64,000 nt of DNA from Acidobacteriota bacterium (GTDB taxonomy: Bacteria > Acidobacteriota > Terriglobia > Bryobacterales > Bryobacteraceae), in assembly GCA_026393985.1 (NCBI GenBank), contig JAPKZB010000073.1, forward strand, positions 1-64,000. Direction: 5' to 3'. Positions 32,177 to 38,147 of this stretch are shown here, piece by piece (within the stretch, counting starts at the first letter, position 1; each line of letters begins with the position of its first letter). The notes under the pieces were generated by a model that worked only from the letters and a program-made list of their open reading frames with translations, was not told the DNA's origin and made no database searches. A program made the position numbers and the translations under genes.

Positions 32177-32380
32177 CTATTCCGGATTATCAAAGTCCCA
32201 CGGAGGAGGAATCGGGCCGCCATGCGAGCTCGCTCCGTCAAAGTCCCACGGAGGAGGAATCGGGCCGCCAGCAAGCAGTTGGGGCTCCATTGTCCCAGCC
32301 GCAGGGGTAATACCGACGCTCGAGCCGAACGCCAGTGACACACAGAGTACAGTTCCCAGGATTAAGTTGAATATCTTCAT
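32177..32380 (-). CDS. small putative secreted peptide with duplicated GGPIPPPWDFD motif
   Basis: ATG at 32380 preceded by GGAG; 67 aa MKIFNLILGTVLCVSLAFGSS...LLAGGPIPPPWDFDGASSHGGPIPPPWDFDNPE; signal-peptide-like N-terminus. Confidence 0.65.
   Translation of the reverse strand: MKIFNLILGTVLCVSLAFGSSVGITPAAGTMEPQLLAGGPIPPPWDFDGASSHGGPIPPPWDFDNPE
32190..32270 (-). repeat. perfect 33-bp direct repeat, two copies, 48-bp period, within the peptide ORF
   Basis: tcaaagtcccacggaggaggaatcgggccgcca at 32190-32222 and 32238-32270. Confidence 0.95.
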
Positions 32381-32598: not shown

Positions 32599-33489
32599 TT
32601 AGTCGCCGCTCTCTCGCCGTACCGAAGGCTCGTAGGTATCCTCATAGATGCTGCGGATGGGGCGCAGACGGCGTCCGGGCCACTCAAGGCGCATGTCTTC
32701 CGACACCTCGTCAAGCATCTTCAGCGTGCAAACCTTCGATTCCATGGCAAACGCGGTAAGCAACAGATTGTCGCAGATGCCATTGATCAGCCGGGGAATC
32801 CCCCGCGACCGCAGATGAATCTCTTCGATCAACGCAACGGGAAAGACCGTCTGGTCGGCTAAACCCACCTTCGACATCCGGCTGTCGATGTACTCGATCG
32901 TCTCGTCGAGCGAAAACGGCTTCAAGTTGTAGCGCAGGACAATCCGCTGCTTTAGTTGCCGGAGATTGGGGGCGTCCAGTTTCCGGTCAAACTCGGGTTG
33001 GCCCGCCAGCACGATCTGCAGCAGCTTGCCTTTCCGGTTCTCGAGGTTGCCAAGAAGACGAATCTCTTCAAGTACCTCCCAGTCCAGATTATGCGCTTCG
33101 TCAACGATCAGCACCGTGGTGCGCCCTTCGTTGGCATGCTGAATCAACATGTTATTCAGCGCAAACAGCACTTCGCTCTTCGACGTTCTCTGGCATTGGA
33201 GGTCGAGGTCGTAGGCAATCATCTCAAAGAACTGCTGGGGATTGATGCGCGAGTTGAACAGGAAGGCAAATTCGATATAGTTGCCTTCGAGATATTCCCG
33301 CAGGCACTCCAGCATCGTGGTCTTGCCCGTGCCCACTTCGCCTGTCAAGACAATAAAGCCCTTCCGGCTCTGCACCCCATAGATCAGATTGGCCAACGCC
33401 TCTTCGTGTTGCTCGCTGCGATAAAGAAACGCAGGATCGGGAGATAGATTAAAGGGGTTGTCCGTTATCCCAAAAAAGGCGTTGTACAT
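32599..33489 (-). CDS. ExeA/GspA-like AAA ATPase
   Basis: YNAFFGITDNPFNLSPDPAFLYRSEQHEEALANLIYGVQSRKGFIVLTGEVGTGKTTMLECL; VLIVDEAHNL; alternative GTG start at 33498. Confidence 0.88.
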   Translation of the reverse strand: MYNAFFGITDNPFNLSPDPAFLYRSEQHEEALANLIYGVQSRKGFIVLTGEVGTGKTTMLECLREYLEGNYIEFAFLFNSRINPQQFFEMIAYDLDLQCQRTSKSEVLFALNNMLIQHANEGRTTVLIVDEAHNLDWEVLEEIRLLGNLENRKGKLLQIVLAGQPEFDRKLDAPNLRQLKQRIVLRYNLKPFSLDETIEYIDSRMSKVGLADQTVFPVALIEEIHLRSRGIPRLINGICDNLLLTAFAMESKVCTLKMLDEVSEDMRLEWPGRRLRPIRSIYEDTYEPSVRRESGD

Positions 33490-33578
33490 AAAGACCACTG
33501 CGAACCATACTATGCTACCATGCGGTTTCCGTACACCCGCTTTTTGCTCTATTCGAGGGTACTACGCCCTGAAAAAAG

Positions 33579-34580
33579 TTAGGACTGTAGCGCGCCCGAA
33601 AGCGGGTAGTACTCTAGCCGCACCCAGCCCGGTACCGTCCCCGGTTCGCCGCCCAGATAGAGAATCCGCTGGGATTTTGGAAAGGCGAATGCTGTGGCCA
33701 GGGCCCGGCGGTAGGCCGGAATCGCCTCCAGCATCGGCCGTGCCGCCGACAACCGCGGCCCCAACGCCACCGACTTCGACAGAAAGCCGCCGCCCCACCC
33801 CACATTCAGCAGACAGCCGCCCCCCGCCTCCACGCCCGCCAGGGTCTGCTGCAGCCGCCCCAGACGGTGCGTTGCCGCAAAATCCCGCTGCCGAGCCAGC
33901 ATGATGCCCGATTGCGCCGTCACCGCCGCAAACTGCTCGGCCCACTCGCCGCTCACCGTGCCGCGCCCGCGGAAGACCGTTCCCGGGACCGCGCATTCGA
34001 CAAAAGTCGGCACCGGCTTCCAGCGCAATTCGGCACCGCCCGGCTTGGCCGGCGTGGCAACCCGCGAATAGTAGACCTGGTAGCGGTCTCCCGCCTCGGG
34101 CGTACCATCGCCCAGCCGCCAGCCGCGCAACAGCTTCGCCGCAATCTGGTGACGAAACGAAGCCAACTGCTCCGGGGTCAGCTGCGCGCCGAGCAGCGCC
34201 GTCTTCAAGGCGCCCTTCACCGCCGTAGCCGGCAGCAGCTTGCCGCTCGGACCAGTGCAAAAGGTCGGAATGAAAATATCTTCATCTTTGGCCTGCTCCC
34301 AGAGCGCTACCAGCCCCGGGTCCTCGAGCGGAATCCGGCGCACAGCGTAGGACTGCGCGTAGCCGCCCCAACTCTTGAATTCGAGCCGCCGGGCGCGGCC
34401 GAGCTCGGCCAGGTAGCCCTCCATTCGGGGCGTGCCGGCCAAGCGCCGGAAGATCAGGCTCTGATCGAGCACGTTCACCTGGTCCTTCCAGACCATGTAG
34501 TCGATTGGCGCGAGGCGCTTTCCGTCGCCCACCAGCGTCGGGGTAAGCACCGTCAGGCGCCACTCAATGCCCACACTCAT
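33579..34580 (-). CDS. csm5: type III-A CRISPR RAMP protein Csm5
   Basis: N-terminal RAMP strand LTVLTPTLVGDGKRLAPIDYMVWKDQVNVLDQSLIFRRL; C-terminal LLNVGWGGGFLSKSVALG, FPKSQRILYLGG; ATG at 34580 overlapping csm4 by 4 bp. Confidence 0.85.
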   Translation of the reverse strand: MSVGIEWRLTVLTPTLVGDGKRLAPIDYMVWKDQVNVLDQSLIFRRLAGTPRMEGYLAELGRARRLEFKSWGGYAQSYAVRRIPLEDPGLVALWEQAKDEDIFIPTFCTGPSGKLLPATAVKGALKTALLGAQLTPEQLASFRHQIAAKLLRGWRLGDGTPEAGDRYQVYYSRVATPAKPGGAELRWKPVPTFVECAVPGTVFRGRGTVSGEWAEQFAAVTAQSGIMLARQRDFAATHRLGRLQQTLAGVEAGGGCLLNVGWGGGFLSKSVALGPRLSAARPMLEAIPAYRRALATAFAFPKSQRILYLGGEPGTVPGWVRLEYYPLSGALQS

Positions 34581-35485
34581 AGCGCCACCGCCACGGCCAG
34601 GCCATTCCGGTAGACCGGGTGCGCCCAACCCTCCGGCGCCACATCCTGCAGCGTCCCCGCCGGGGCCTGCGGAGCGAATAGAACCGCGCCCTCCCGCACC
34701 AGCCGCTGCGGCTGTTTGGCCACCGTGGTTCCTTCCACCCATCCCGACCGGACCGTCAACTGGTAGGCGCCCTGTTCCCAGTAGACCTCCTCTCCGTCGG
34801 CCGGGGCGAACAGGCTCAACAGCCACCAGCCCTTCGAGCCATCGCCGGCGCCCCGCCGCAGCAGAGCCTCCGCGCTATCGGCACTTTCGATCCGCACCCC
34901 GGCGCTGCCGCCCCAGCCGAGCGAACGGTTGCCACCAAGGCCGGCATCGGCCAGCCAGCGCAAAGCGGCTTCGACGCGCGGCCGCCAGGCCTCGTCCTGA
35001 CATACCGCCAGTCCCCAGACGCCCGCGCCTTCGGCGAACTGCACTCCGGTTTTGGGTCCCGCGCCCTTTTCAACGCGCACCGGCCGGAACGGACCGCCAG
35101 CGCCCGCGCGGTCGGCTGCCAGCAGACAGCCGGAGGCGGGGTCGAGCACCCAGCGGGATTCCACCAGACCACTCTCGCTGAGCAGATCGCGGATTGCCGC
35201 CAAGGGAAGAAAACGAACCAGTTTTGGGCGCAGCCGCTGCAGACCGTGGGGCGGGGGCCAGGCCGCCGCCGGCGGGGGGGCAAACAGCGTGCCCTGCTGC
35301 CAGGGAAAAAGCGAACTGAGCCGGACGGCGCTGCCGGCCGCCAGCCACTCCTCGAGCCAGCCGAAGCGATCCATGGCCGCGCACACGGCACCGTAGAAGG
35401 TGTCGCTCCCGAGCAGGGACGGCCCCGCCCCGGCCGCGCTCCACGCCCCGCGGGCTTGGAACCGAAACAGGATCGCCTGCGCCAT
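34577..35485 (-). CDS. csm4: type III-A CRISPR RAMP protein Csm4
   Basis: LLGSDTFYGAVCAAM; SSLFPWQQGTLFAPPP; Gly-rich DAGLGGNRSLGWGG; terminal HPVYRNGLAVAV. Confidence 0.85.
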   Translation of the reverse strand: MAQAILFRFQARGAWSAAGAGPSLLGSDTFYGAVCAAMDRFGWLEEWLAAGSAVRLSSLFPWQQGTLFAPPPAAAWPPPHGLQRLRPKLVRFLPLAAIRDLLSESGLVESRWVLDPASGCLLAADRAGAGGPFRPVRVEKGAGPKTGVQFAEGAGVWGLAVCQDEAWRPRVEAALRWLADAGLGGNRSLGWGGSAGVRIESADSAEALLRRGAGDGSKGWWLLSLFAPADGEEVYWEQGAYQLTVRSGWVEGTTVAKQPQRLVREGAVLFAPQAPAGTLQDVAPEGWAHPVYRNGLAVAVAL

Positions 35486-35489
35486 GCCG

Positions 35490-36320
35490 TTATTCCGCCA
35501 GCGCCGCCGCGAAGCCTTCGCCGCGCACCAGAGCCTGTAGCGCCCCCAGATCGCCGCCCGCGAGCAGTTCTACTTCGCCGTTCTCGCCCAGATAGAAACC
35601 CTTGCCGCGCCAGGTCAACCGGCAGGCCGAAAAACGAACCCGGCCGCTGCCGCGCGATCCGCCGCCGCCCAAGGCGTCGTCTTCGAGCAGGCGCAAGCCC
35701 TGCACGAGCAGCCCGGTGAGGGCGTGATCGTCCTCGGCGAGTTGGTCCAGCACGAAGCGGACGTGGAAGCGCGCCCCGGCCGGGACGCGTTCCAGCGTCC
35801 GGGGATTAGCCTGGGCCGTAATCCGGTCGATGGCGTTCTCGCTTTTGACCTCGGTGAGTTCATCGTCGAGAAACTCGCGCATGGGCGCTGTGATCGAGTC
35901 CAGGTCGAGGGGAGCGTCGTAGATGGTCAGGCGCGCCGGGGTGGCCGAACGGCCGTCGAGGGCGTCGCCGCGCACCCGCTCCATGCGGCTGGGGCTGCGG
36001 CCGAACAGTAGACAGAGGGCGTCGTCGGGGCGGTCGCTCTGGTGGATCCGCACCTCCTGGCCGCGCCGCCGGGACAGGTAGACTAGCTCCTCAGGCGAGG
36101 TCAGGCCGTGGGCGTGCTCGAGCAGGCTGCGCAAACGACCGCGCAGCGAGGAGCCGGGGACGATGGGCCGGCCGAAGGCGTCCTTGACCACCGGATTATC
36201 GGCACCGCCAATTTCGAGCGATCCTTTGCCCGCGCCAATGTGCAGGCCGGTCTCGCAGTGCAGCACCGCTTCGAGAATGAGTTTGCCGCGCAGACGCAGC
36301 GTGGGTTTTGCTTCGCTCAT
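35490..36320 (-). CDS. csm3: type III-A CRISPR RAMP RNase Csm3
   Basis: CETGLHIGAGKGSLEIGGADNPVVKDAFGRPIVPGSSLRGRLRSLLEH; NAIDRITAQANPRTLERVPAGARF; ALGGGGSRGSGRVRF. Confidence 0.95.
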   Translation of the reverse strand: MSEAKPTLRLRGKLILEAVLHCETGLHIGAGKGSLEIGGADNPVVKDAFGRPIVPGSSLRGRLRSLLEHAHGLTSPEELVYLSRRRGQEVRIHQSDRPDDALCLLFGRSPSRMERVRGDALDGRSATPARLTIYDAPLDLDSITAPMREFLDDELTEVKSENAIDRITAQANPRTLERVPAGARFHVRFVLDQLAEDDHALTGLLVQGLRLLEDDALGGGGSRGSGRVRFSACRLTWRGKGFYLGENGEVELLAGGDLGALQALVRGEGFAAALAE

Positions 36321-36326
36321 GGCTGG

Positions 36327-36773
36327 TTACTCGTTGTAGGCAATGATGGCTTCAAACAGGTCGCGGAACCGCTCGTAGGTGGCAAGTTCATTCTTGCGGG
36401 TTACCTGGAGCAGCAGTTTTTCGAGCGGGTCCAGGCTGCGCAGCGAGTGGCGGGCGATGGTGTAGGCCAGCCGGGCGCGGAACATGACGAACTGGTGCTG
36501 CCGTTCGGTTTCAGGAGCGCGGCAGGCGCGCCGCACGGCGCTGTACAGGCGGCGCAACTGGCTGCGCGTGCCCGAGTCCATGTCGTGCAACCGGGTGACG
36601 AGCACATGCGCCTGGTTGTCGAGATAGAGACTGTCGGCGCAGAGCTTGGCGAGGTCGATTTCAACGTTGGCTTCCTGACGGGGACGGTCGCGGTCCCGGT
36701 CGTCGCGGCGCGGGGGGCGGCCACCGTCCCGTGGGGGCCGGTCTTCGCGGCGTGGCTGTCTCTGTTCGGCCAT
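36327..36773 (-). CDS. csm2: type III-A CRISPR small subunit Csm2 (with charged N-terminal extension)
   Basis: position between csm1 and csm3; helical LRRLYSAVRRAC...MFRARLAYTIARH...LEKLLLQVTRKNELATYERFRDLFEAIIAY. Confidence 0.85.
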   Translation of the reverse strand: MAEQRQPRREDRPPRDGGRPPRRDDRDRDRPRQEANVEIDLAKLCADSLYLDNQAHVLVTRLHDMDSGTRSQLRRLYSAVRRACRAPETERQHQFVMFRARLAYTIARHSLRSLDPLEKLLLQVTRKNELATYERFRDLFEAIIAYNE

Positions 36774-36794: not shown

Positions 36795-38147
36795 TTACGA
36801 GGATGTTGCTTCGAGGCGTGCCCAGGCGAGCGCGACATAGCCGGTGGGGCGCAGTTGGCGCCGGCCGGCGGCTTCGGCGGTCAGTTGGCTCAGCAGGGTA
36901 TCCCATTGTTTGTCAAAGGCGTCGCTTTCGCCGACGTCCACCGCGCGCCGCAGCCGGCGGTGCAGCCGCCAGGGCTTGTCGAGGGTGCGGCCCCGGCGGC
37001 GCGCGCGCGCCGAAGCCAGGTCGCCGCCCGCCGCCGGGTCTACGTAGAAGCCTTCGAGTTCGTCGAGAAACTCGGGCGAGGCGTGAAAGCGGCTCAGCAG
37101 CTTGCGCATCTGGCCTTTGATTTCGATAGCTTCCTTCAACTGTGCCCAGTCGAGGGTCCGCCCGAACAGCGAGATGGCGTTTTTGCCGGAGGCCTTGACG
37201 GTTTCAAGGGCTTCGAGGGAGCGGCCGTAGACGCTGGCCAGGCTCTCGCCGCGGCCGGCGTGCACGATGGCCATCGAAACGCTCCGCGAAGCGCCCTCGC
37301 GCTGTTCATCGAGCTGCCGCAGCATCAGGCCGGCCACGCGGCGCATCTCGCGCGCCAGATCGAGCAGGGCATCCCAGGGGGCGGCCACCGCGAAATCGTC
37401 GCCACCGCTATAGAGCACTGTGACGCGGGAGGCGAACTCCTCGGTGGCGGCGACGCGGGCCAGTTCGCCGGCGACGAAGTTCTTAAAGGTCATCGACAGC
37501 TGCAGGTACTCTTCGGCGGTGGTGGCCGCCCGCAGCCGGGGGCCGACGTTATCGAGATCGGCCGTCAAAACGCCCCAGCGCCGCACCGGCGGCAAGGCCC
37601 GGCTGACGGCGATCGGCAGCGGCCACTGGTGCGCGCCGGCATCGGCCAGGAAGGCGGTGGGATCTTCGCTCGACCAGCCAACGTTGGCCGCCGACCGTAG
37701 CGCCGTGACGAGTGCATCGTAAGGAAACGGCGTGGTGCCGCCCACGAGCACGCCAAGCGGCAACCGAGGCGTCTCACGCCGCTGGCGCAGGCCGGCTGCA
37801 AGACGCTTGCGGATGTCCGGCCACGTGCCCAGATTCTCCGTGCTGCTCCAGACCAGCGCCACGCGGCCATCGGTCACCGTCGCTACCCGCGCGGCCAGGG
37901 TGGCAAGAAACGCATCGGCGGCCGGCATGGCCGCCTCCGGCAGGACCAACAGAAACCGCCCACCCGTCACCGCGCCCAACAGCAGCGGGGAGAGCCCGAG
38001 TTCGGCCAGGAGGGCCCGCGGGGCCATCTCCCCGAGCAAGGCAAACCAGTGGCAGCGGCTCAGAAAAGCTTCACTCCCCAGGCTTTCTTCCGTCAGCAGG
38101 GCGTTAATTCCGAAAAATTTGGCTTGGAGGAAAACTTGGAGCGACAT
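36795..38147 (-). CDS. csm1: Cas10/Csm1-type protein, HD-less, GGDD-containing
   Basis: palm motifs RWGVLTADLDNVGPRL and VTVLYSGGDDFAVAAPWD; SMAIVHAGRGESLASVYGRSLEALETVKASGKNAISLFG; 450 aa; in-frame stop 8 codons upstream of the ATG. Confidence 0.92.
   Translation of the reverse strand: MSLQVFLQAKFFGINALLTEESLGSEAFLSRCHWFALLGEMAPRALLAELGLSPLLLGAVTGGRFLLVLPEAAMPAADAFLATLAARVATVTDGRVALVWSSTENLGTWPDIRKRLAAGLRQRRETPRLPLGVLVGGTTPFPYDALVTALRSAANVGWSSEDPTAFLADAGAHQWPLPIAVSRALPPVRRWGVLTADLDNVGPRLRAATTAEEYLQLSMTFKNFVAGELARVAATEEFASRVTVLYSGGDDFAVAAPWDALLDLAREMRRVAGLMLRQLDEQREGASRSVSMAIVHAGRGESLASVYGRSLEALETVKASGKNAISLFGRTLDWAQLKEAIEIKGQMRKLLSRFHASPEFLDELEGFYVDPAAGGDLASARARRRGRTLDKPWRLHRRLRRAVDVGESDAFDKQWDTLLSQLTAEAAGRRQLRPTGYVALAWARLEATSS

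Follow-up and report, generated by a model that had tools for sequence, protein, structure and literature searches.

We think it probable that the short csm operon carried by this stretch of DNA encodes a domesticated type III-A Csm complex, one that is vertically inherited, near-core in the Bryobacteraceae and independent of any dedicated array or adaptation module. As a rule, CRISPR-Cas loci have a patchy distribution and are gained by horizontal transfer. What is unusual here is a near-core operon with neither an array nor cas1 beside it, and this is the feature that the first-pass annotation of the window (by which we mean the whole stretch analysed, 64,000 nucleotides in length) overlooked in its account of a short Cas10 that lacks the HD nuclease domain. 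An HD-less Cas10 is by itself ordinary, since a published survey that covered 1113 type III loci could recognise an HD domain in only 39% of them and in 65% of those assigned to III-A, the domain being lacking in about a third of the latter, and the same survey reported a cyclase domain in 92% of the loci, with 133 loci being cyclase-positive, nuclease-deficient and provided with no known effector (PMC11229360). HD loss is thus already known, and it is the setting of the HD-less Cas10, in a near-core and array-free operon, that is new; among open-licence PMC papers we found nothing relevant on array-less Csm systems in Bryobacteraceae, Solibacter or Acidobacteriota.

The operon runs in the order short cas10-csm2-csm3-csm4-csm5, and is then often followed by a gene for an AAA+ ATPase (Table 1).

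Table 1. Genes of the short csm operon and its recurring neighbour in the window
Gene or product	Coordinates	Strand	Length	Matches and features
short cas10/csm1	36795..38147	-	450 aa	palm1, palm2 (SGGDD motif) and C-terminal domains; lacks HD domain and zinc finger
csm2	36327..36773	-	148 aa	PF03750, E 2e-10; core plus Arg/Pro/Asp-rich N-terminal extension of ~38 aa
csm3, Cas7-type backbone RNase	35490..36320	-	276 aa	TIGR02582, E 1e-55; putative catalytic Asp41 in IGGADNPVVKD
csm4, Cas5-type subunit	34577..35485	-	302 aa	TIGR01903, E 8e-26
csm5	33579..34580	-	333 aa	Csm5 models: PADLOC E 4e-14, NCBIfam E 1e-6
AAA+ ATPase, candidate operon partner	32599..33498	-		TIGR03015-like, under that model's cut-off

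Two of these genes call for some comment on how they were delimited or recognised. The listed open reading frame of csm5 runs upstream to 34826, and the homologous part begins with the ATG at 34580, a conserved start that overlaps csm4; the NCBIfam score of Csm5 lies below the cut-off, but the PADLOC Csm5 models do match. The AAA+ ATPase gene, which is highly conserved, sits directly 3' of csm5 in 44 of the 76 loci that have enough sequence. In addition, few parts of the operon are as conserved as the core of Csm2, and in all 115 loci that core is preceded by an N-terminal extension of 38-190 aa, rich in Arg, Pro, Gly and Glu and probably disordered, whose composition suggests that it may make extra RNA contacts.

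Downstream of the ATPase gene, the window also encodes a 67-aa secreted-looking peptide (32177-32380, minus strand) with two near-identical repeats of GGPIPPPWDFD. In 20 of 45 distinct loci, drawn from several genera, the stretch 3' of the ATPase codes for a small protein whose start is signal-like and whose repeats of 14-30 aa are often proline-rich (the opposite-strand control gave 4 of 45), and this protein resembles a repeat precursor peptide. A 33-nt direct repeat at 32190-32270 was considered as a pair of CRISPR repeats and rejected, as it codes for the repeats of the small secreted-looking peptide.

That the short Cas10 has no HD domain is well supported. The open reading frame of 450 aa, with its ATG start, was confirmed as originally described, and so was its surrounding: an in-frame TGA at 38174-38172 stands upstream, separated from the ATG by eight codons, and a pseudouridine synthase gene diverges from cas10 with its start at about 38194 (plus strand), which on re-reading leaves no room for an HD domain. 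The sole Pfam match of the protein is to palm2 (PF22335, aa 191-325, E 1e-15), and the NCBIfam Csm1 model TIGR02578 aligns Cas10 residues 189-445 with its positions 507-750 of 753. In a profile-profile alignment against full-length Csm1 of the same family, residue 5 of the short Cas10 falls at column 279, and it follows that about 277 N-terminal residues are missing. The earlier description had the protein beginning close to a first palm-like domain and called for comparison with Csm1 structures; indeed, the first element of an AlphaFold2 model (pLDDT 83, pTM 0.83) is the palm-1 strand, and the best solved-structure matches of that model, by Foldseek, are type III-A Csm1 chains. The zinc finger has been lost too, given that the short Cas10 has a single Cys and no CxxC, the zinc-finger cysteines of full-length Csm1 being missing.

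Several ways in which an HD domain might have escaped notice can be set aside. Truncation of Cas10 by the assembly is ruled out by 110 full-length homologues of like length (426-551 aa, counted from the aligned start). An upstream HD domain, or one joined by a frameshift, had been named at the outset as a finding that would overturn the claim; it was looked for and rejected, both on the agreement of the homologue lengths and on the lack of room 5' of cas10. The longest open frame upstream, of 708 aa from stop to stop at locus L033, overlaps the pseudouridine synthase gene in antisense and has no Pfam match, and where 'HD' dipeptides do occur, in nine relatives, they belong to a variable loop that follows the first strand. 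With the HD domain lost, it is fair to infer that the ssDNase activity of Cas10 has probably gone as well, just as the first-pass annotation predicted.

The subunit expected to cut RNA has kept its putative active site. The Csm3 motif IGGADNPVVKD aligns with solved Csm3 chains, and its Asp, which we take to be the equivalent of catalytic Asp33 in S. thermophilus Csm3, is invariant in 120 of 120 loci. The cyclase motif of Cas10 tells a more varied story. In the window protein SGGDD, ADLD and SGKN are all present, including the GGDD reported earlier, and on these motifs cOA signalling by the Cas10 of the window organism is plausible. Across 95 distinct Cas10 homologues, the motif reads GGDD in 70 and GGDE in 7 and is degenerate in 18, as in GLEG or GSAD, the tree requiring 10 or more changes, and the loci in which it is degenerate have intact remaining Csm subunits, with the catalytic Asp of Csm3 in place; published Cas10 sets, for their part, are 92-97% cyclase-positive (PMC11229360; PMC12669027). 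Signalling is consequently not a constant of the family, so that the original prediction of retained signalling is compatible with the Cas10 of the window and does not extend to the family as a whole.

These counts bear directly on the idea that the operon is a stand-alone signalling device, in which selection acts on an RNA-triggered Cas10 cyclase and the effector is the AAA+ ATPase or some unlinked protein. The 77 of 95 homologues with GGDD or GGDE would fit such a device, as would a highly conserved ATPase that so often adjoins csm5, but a cyclase motif that has degenerated time and again with the other subunits intact is not what it would lead us to expect, and nor is a Cas10 whose conservation falls far below that of Csm2 and Csm3. 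In addition, the window's own genome has no match to Csx1 HEPN, and on these grounds we regard the device as improbable. In the neighbourhood of the operon we recognised no cOA effector, and a search for Csm6 HEPN returned no matches, with controls that were likewise silent.

The case for domestication is carried above all by distribution and descent. We searched 257 genomes of the order, 237 of them from the family and most of them draft MAGs, and the short Cas10 was present in 214, all of them Bryobacteraceae. It occurs in 143 of the 163 high-quality genomes of the order. Among the roughly 148 of these that belong to the Bryobacteraceae its share reaches about 97%, just five (G078, G079, G103, G108 and G122) being without it; contig-edge losses aside, the five-gene operon is complete in 41 loci. 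The operon has descended vertically, and purifying selection on it is strong. Each of the eight multi-member genera is monophyletic in a tree built from Cas10, Csm3 and Csm2, pairwise dN/dS within the genus is 0.04-0.15 for the five operon genes, and there is no internal stop in any of 120 csm3 copies. Csm3 is conserved as AspRS is: across genera, it shares 65-76% identity with the protein of the window and the Csm2 core about 74-83%, with AspRS at 70-75% and HisRS at 60-62% (both from few loci), whereas Cas10, Csm4 and Csm5 mostly share 31-45% across the same genera. Carriage of the operon by mobile elements is argued against by the viral contigs, in which Csm3 has no relatives.

It might be objected that we are looking at the decaying remnant of a CRISPR-Cas system that has lost its array, its adaptation genes and its HD domain. 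Certainly, array, cas1 and cas6 are all absent beside the operon, the HD domain and zinc finger have gone and the cyclase motif is eroding in some lineages, but dN/dS values well below 1 in all five genes already contradict decay, as do the csm3 copies free of internal stops and the retention of the operon in nearly all good genomes, and we find this explanation very hard to credit.

The csm operon is INDEPENDENCE from CRISPR, in that an adjacent array, cas1 and cas6 are absent at the csm loci examined, both in the window and in csm loci from other genera, taken as 20-kb stretches. The repeat runs that array finders flagged in three of these loci (L035, L036 and L039) are not arrays but tandem repeats that lack unique spacers. 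Further afield, Cas1 was found in 120 of the 237 family genomes, and none was detected in the window's own genome, which is 98% complete. An array pattern based on a common repeat end (GATTRARAY) matches 88 of the 257 genomes of the order and has no match in the window's own genome, although it is insensitive, giving two or more matches in only 52 of the 120 Cas1-positive genomes. A repeat-independent script, which recovers the known arrays in three control loci, turned up tandem and dispersed repeats and no array in 1.10 Mb, or 19%, of the own genome, the other 81% having been searched by pattern only. Given the insensitivity of the pattern and the 19% coverage of the scan, there may be an unlinked orphan array.

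It is here that the main rival to our reading has to be weighed, namely that this is an ordinary HD-less III-A effector that has its arrays, Cas6 and adaptation genes at other places in the genome, and that would receive its crRNAs in trans and perform RNA cleavage and cOA signalling. All five subunits are, after all, Csm proteins, Cas1 is found in roughly half of the family genomes and subtype III-G sets a precedent for the use of arrays in trans (PMC12669027). There is also the matter of Cas6, of which the window's own genome has one, encoded on a different contig and flanked by genes for a TonB-type outer-membrane protein and a metalloprotease; its relatives occur in 190 of the 257 genomes (E 1e-15), in varying places and with no recurring neighbours. 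However, the operon is near-universal, vertical and as slow-evolving as housekeeping genes where Cas1 is patchy. Indeed, we find the short operon in 100 of 117 Cas1-negative genomes as well as in 114 of 120 Cas1-positive ones, and it is kept in 79 genomes that have neither Cas1 nor an array match. Cas6 was not found in the same-genus genomes G084, G089, G090 and G100, all of which keep the operon, so that Cas6 is common without being obligatory, and the cyclase motif on which signalling would rely is not conserved. As far as an insensitive pattern and a scan of 19% of the own genome can tell, we consider an ordinary effector supplied in trans less likely than domestication.

The orphan Cas6 of the window's own genome (G000) is a 236-aa protein with a glycine-rich loop, encoded at locus L053, 9355-10065 on the plus strand of contig C49, with no cas neighbours. 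In three genomes of the same genus (G093, G094 and G101), the match to the orphan Cas6 contains one internal TAA, and these copies may be pseudogenes. The retention of an orphan Cas6 in many genomes suggests that repeat-containing RNA is still processed there.

A further line of evidence comes from eight genomes (G071, G072, G076, G139, G142, G143, G144 and G155; loci L235-L242) that possess a full-length Csm1 alongside the short operon. This second Csm1 aligns across the whole Csm1 model, and in the genomes for which its frame was read it contains an HD-type motif (FLHDSGKF, FLHDIGKF or FLHDAGKL), GGDDL and the zinc-finger cysteines; a second type of Cas6 is encoded nearby, joined in several of the genomes by Cas1 or arrays. 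The Csm3 of these loci, four of which were compared, is 36-40% identical to that of the window, against 65-76% for the orthologues in short operons, and the short operon is for this reason a separate lineage, not a degraded version of the local immune system.

How, then, does the short operon relate to known systems? Its gene content is that of type III-A, with the cas10-csm2-csm3-csm4-csm5 order and subunits, the Csm1 fold and the active-site Asp of Csm3, and in genomic behaviour it resembles the array-less derivatives HRAMP and ARAMP. It departs from other III-A effectors in a Cas10 without HD domain or zinc finger, in the long, probably disordered N-terminus of Csm2, in its near-universal and vertical occurrence within a family and in that neither an array nor cas1, cas2, cas6 or csm6 is linked to it. 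With the HD-less, cyclase-positive loci of the published survey (PMC11229360) it shares the absent HD domain and the cyclase motif, and some of those loci also have no known effector, but they are patchy CRISPR loci in a set whose Cas10 is 92% cyclase-positive, whereas here the operon is near-core and the motif has been lost repeatedly. HRAMP and ARAMP (PMC8730458, PMC12669027) are likewise array-less Cas5/Cas7 modules that belong to one lineage and have no known function; they are, however, archaeal, with highly diverged Cas5 and Cas7 and added nucleases, while the short operon is bacterial, its Csm set is full and recognisable and extends to Cas10, its Cas7-type subunit has a conserved active-site residue and its recurring neighbour encodes an AAA+ ATPase. 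Subtype III-G (PMC12669027) is also a type III effector without an adaptation module, in whose loci no array has been found, but its HD-active, cyclase-dead Cas10 and its Cas7 without a catalytic Asp are the reverse of what the short operon has. Finally, a conserved Csm complex with a proposed role beyond adaptive immunity is found in the type III-A system of Mycobacterium tuberculosis (PMC13334790), although there the CRISPR system is kept, together with a Csm6 effector.

If the complex has indeed been domesticated, we can picture its workings as follows. Csm2, Csm3, Csm4 and Csm5 would assemble with the stripped-down Cas10 on a guide RNA that does not derive from a linked array, is probably host-encoded and is perhaps matured, where one is present, by the unlinked Cas6. 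The complex would pair with a target transcript, which Csm3 would cut by means of Asp41, and cyclic oligoadenylate may, in the window organism, be a further product, made at the palm-2 GGDD site. Cas10, being without its HD domain, would cut no DNA and might act as a scaffold, messenger synthesis not looking possible in every lineage. Such a complex could serve a regulatory role or one in innate RNA surveillance, in which the AAA+ ATPase might conceivably take part. More tentatively, it could be a housekeeping ribonucleoprotein throughout the family, using a chromosomal, non-CRISPR guide to cleave host or phage transcripts via Csm3, with the Cas10 nuclease, and in some lineages the cyclase, being dispensable; this we advance as a serious possibility, short of an expectation. 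If domestication is true, the Bryobacteraceae, a large family of soil bacteria, provide a natural test case for a CRISPR effector turned to a cellular function, and the question that it raises is which RNA the complex carries and which RNA it cuts. In addition, natural Cas10 variants that lack the HD domain, some lineages lacking a canonical GGDD too, should help to separate RNA cleavage from signalling.

As for the guide itself, no conserved non-coding DNA lies beside the operon, where only coding sequence is conserved between genera, and Rfam gave no match as a guide RNA candidate. Some repeats were seen in passing. Similar dispersed repeats with palindromic GCGCAC...GTGCGC parts occur on several contigs of the window's own genome (L278 507-784, L282 941-1188 and L274 1-229) and are possibly REP-like intergenic elements, and at L256 8060-8298 there is a tandem array with a 25-nt unit, AGCCTCGTCAGCAACAAACGACGCG, that runs into masked sequence.
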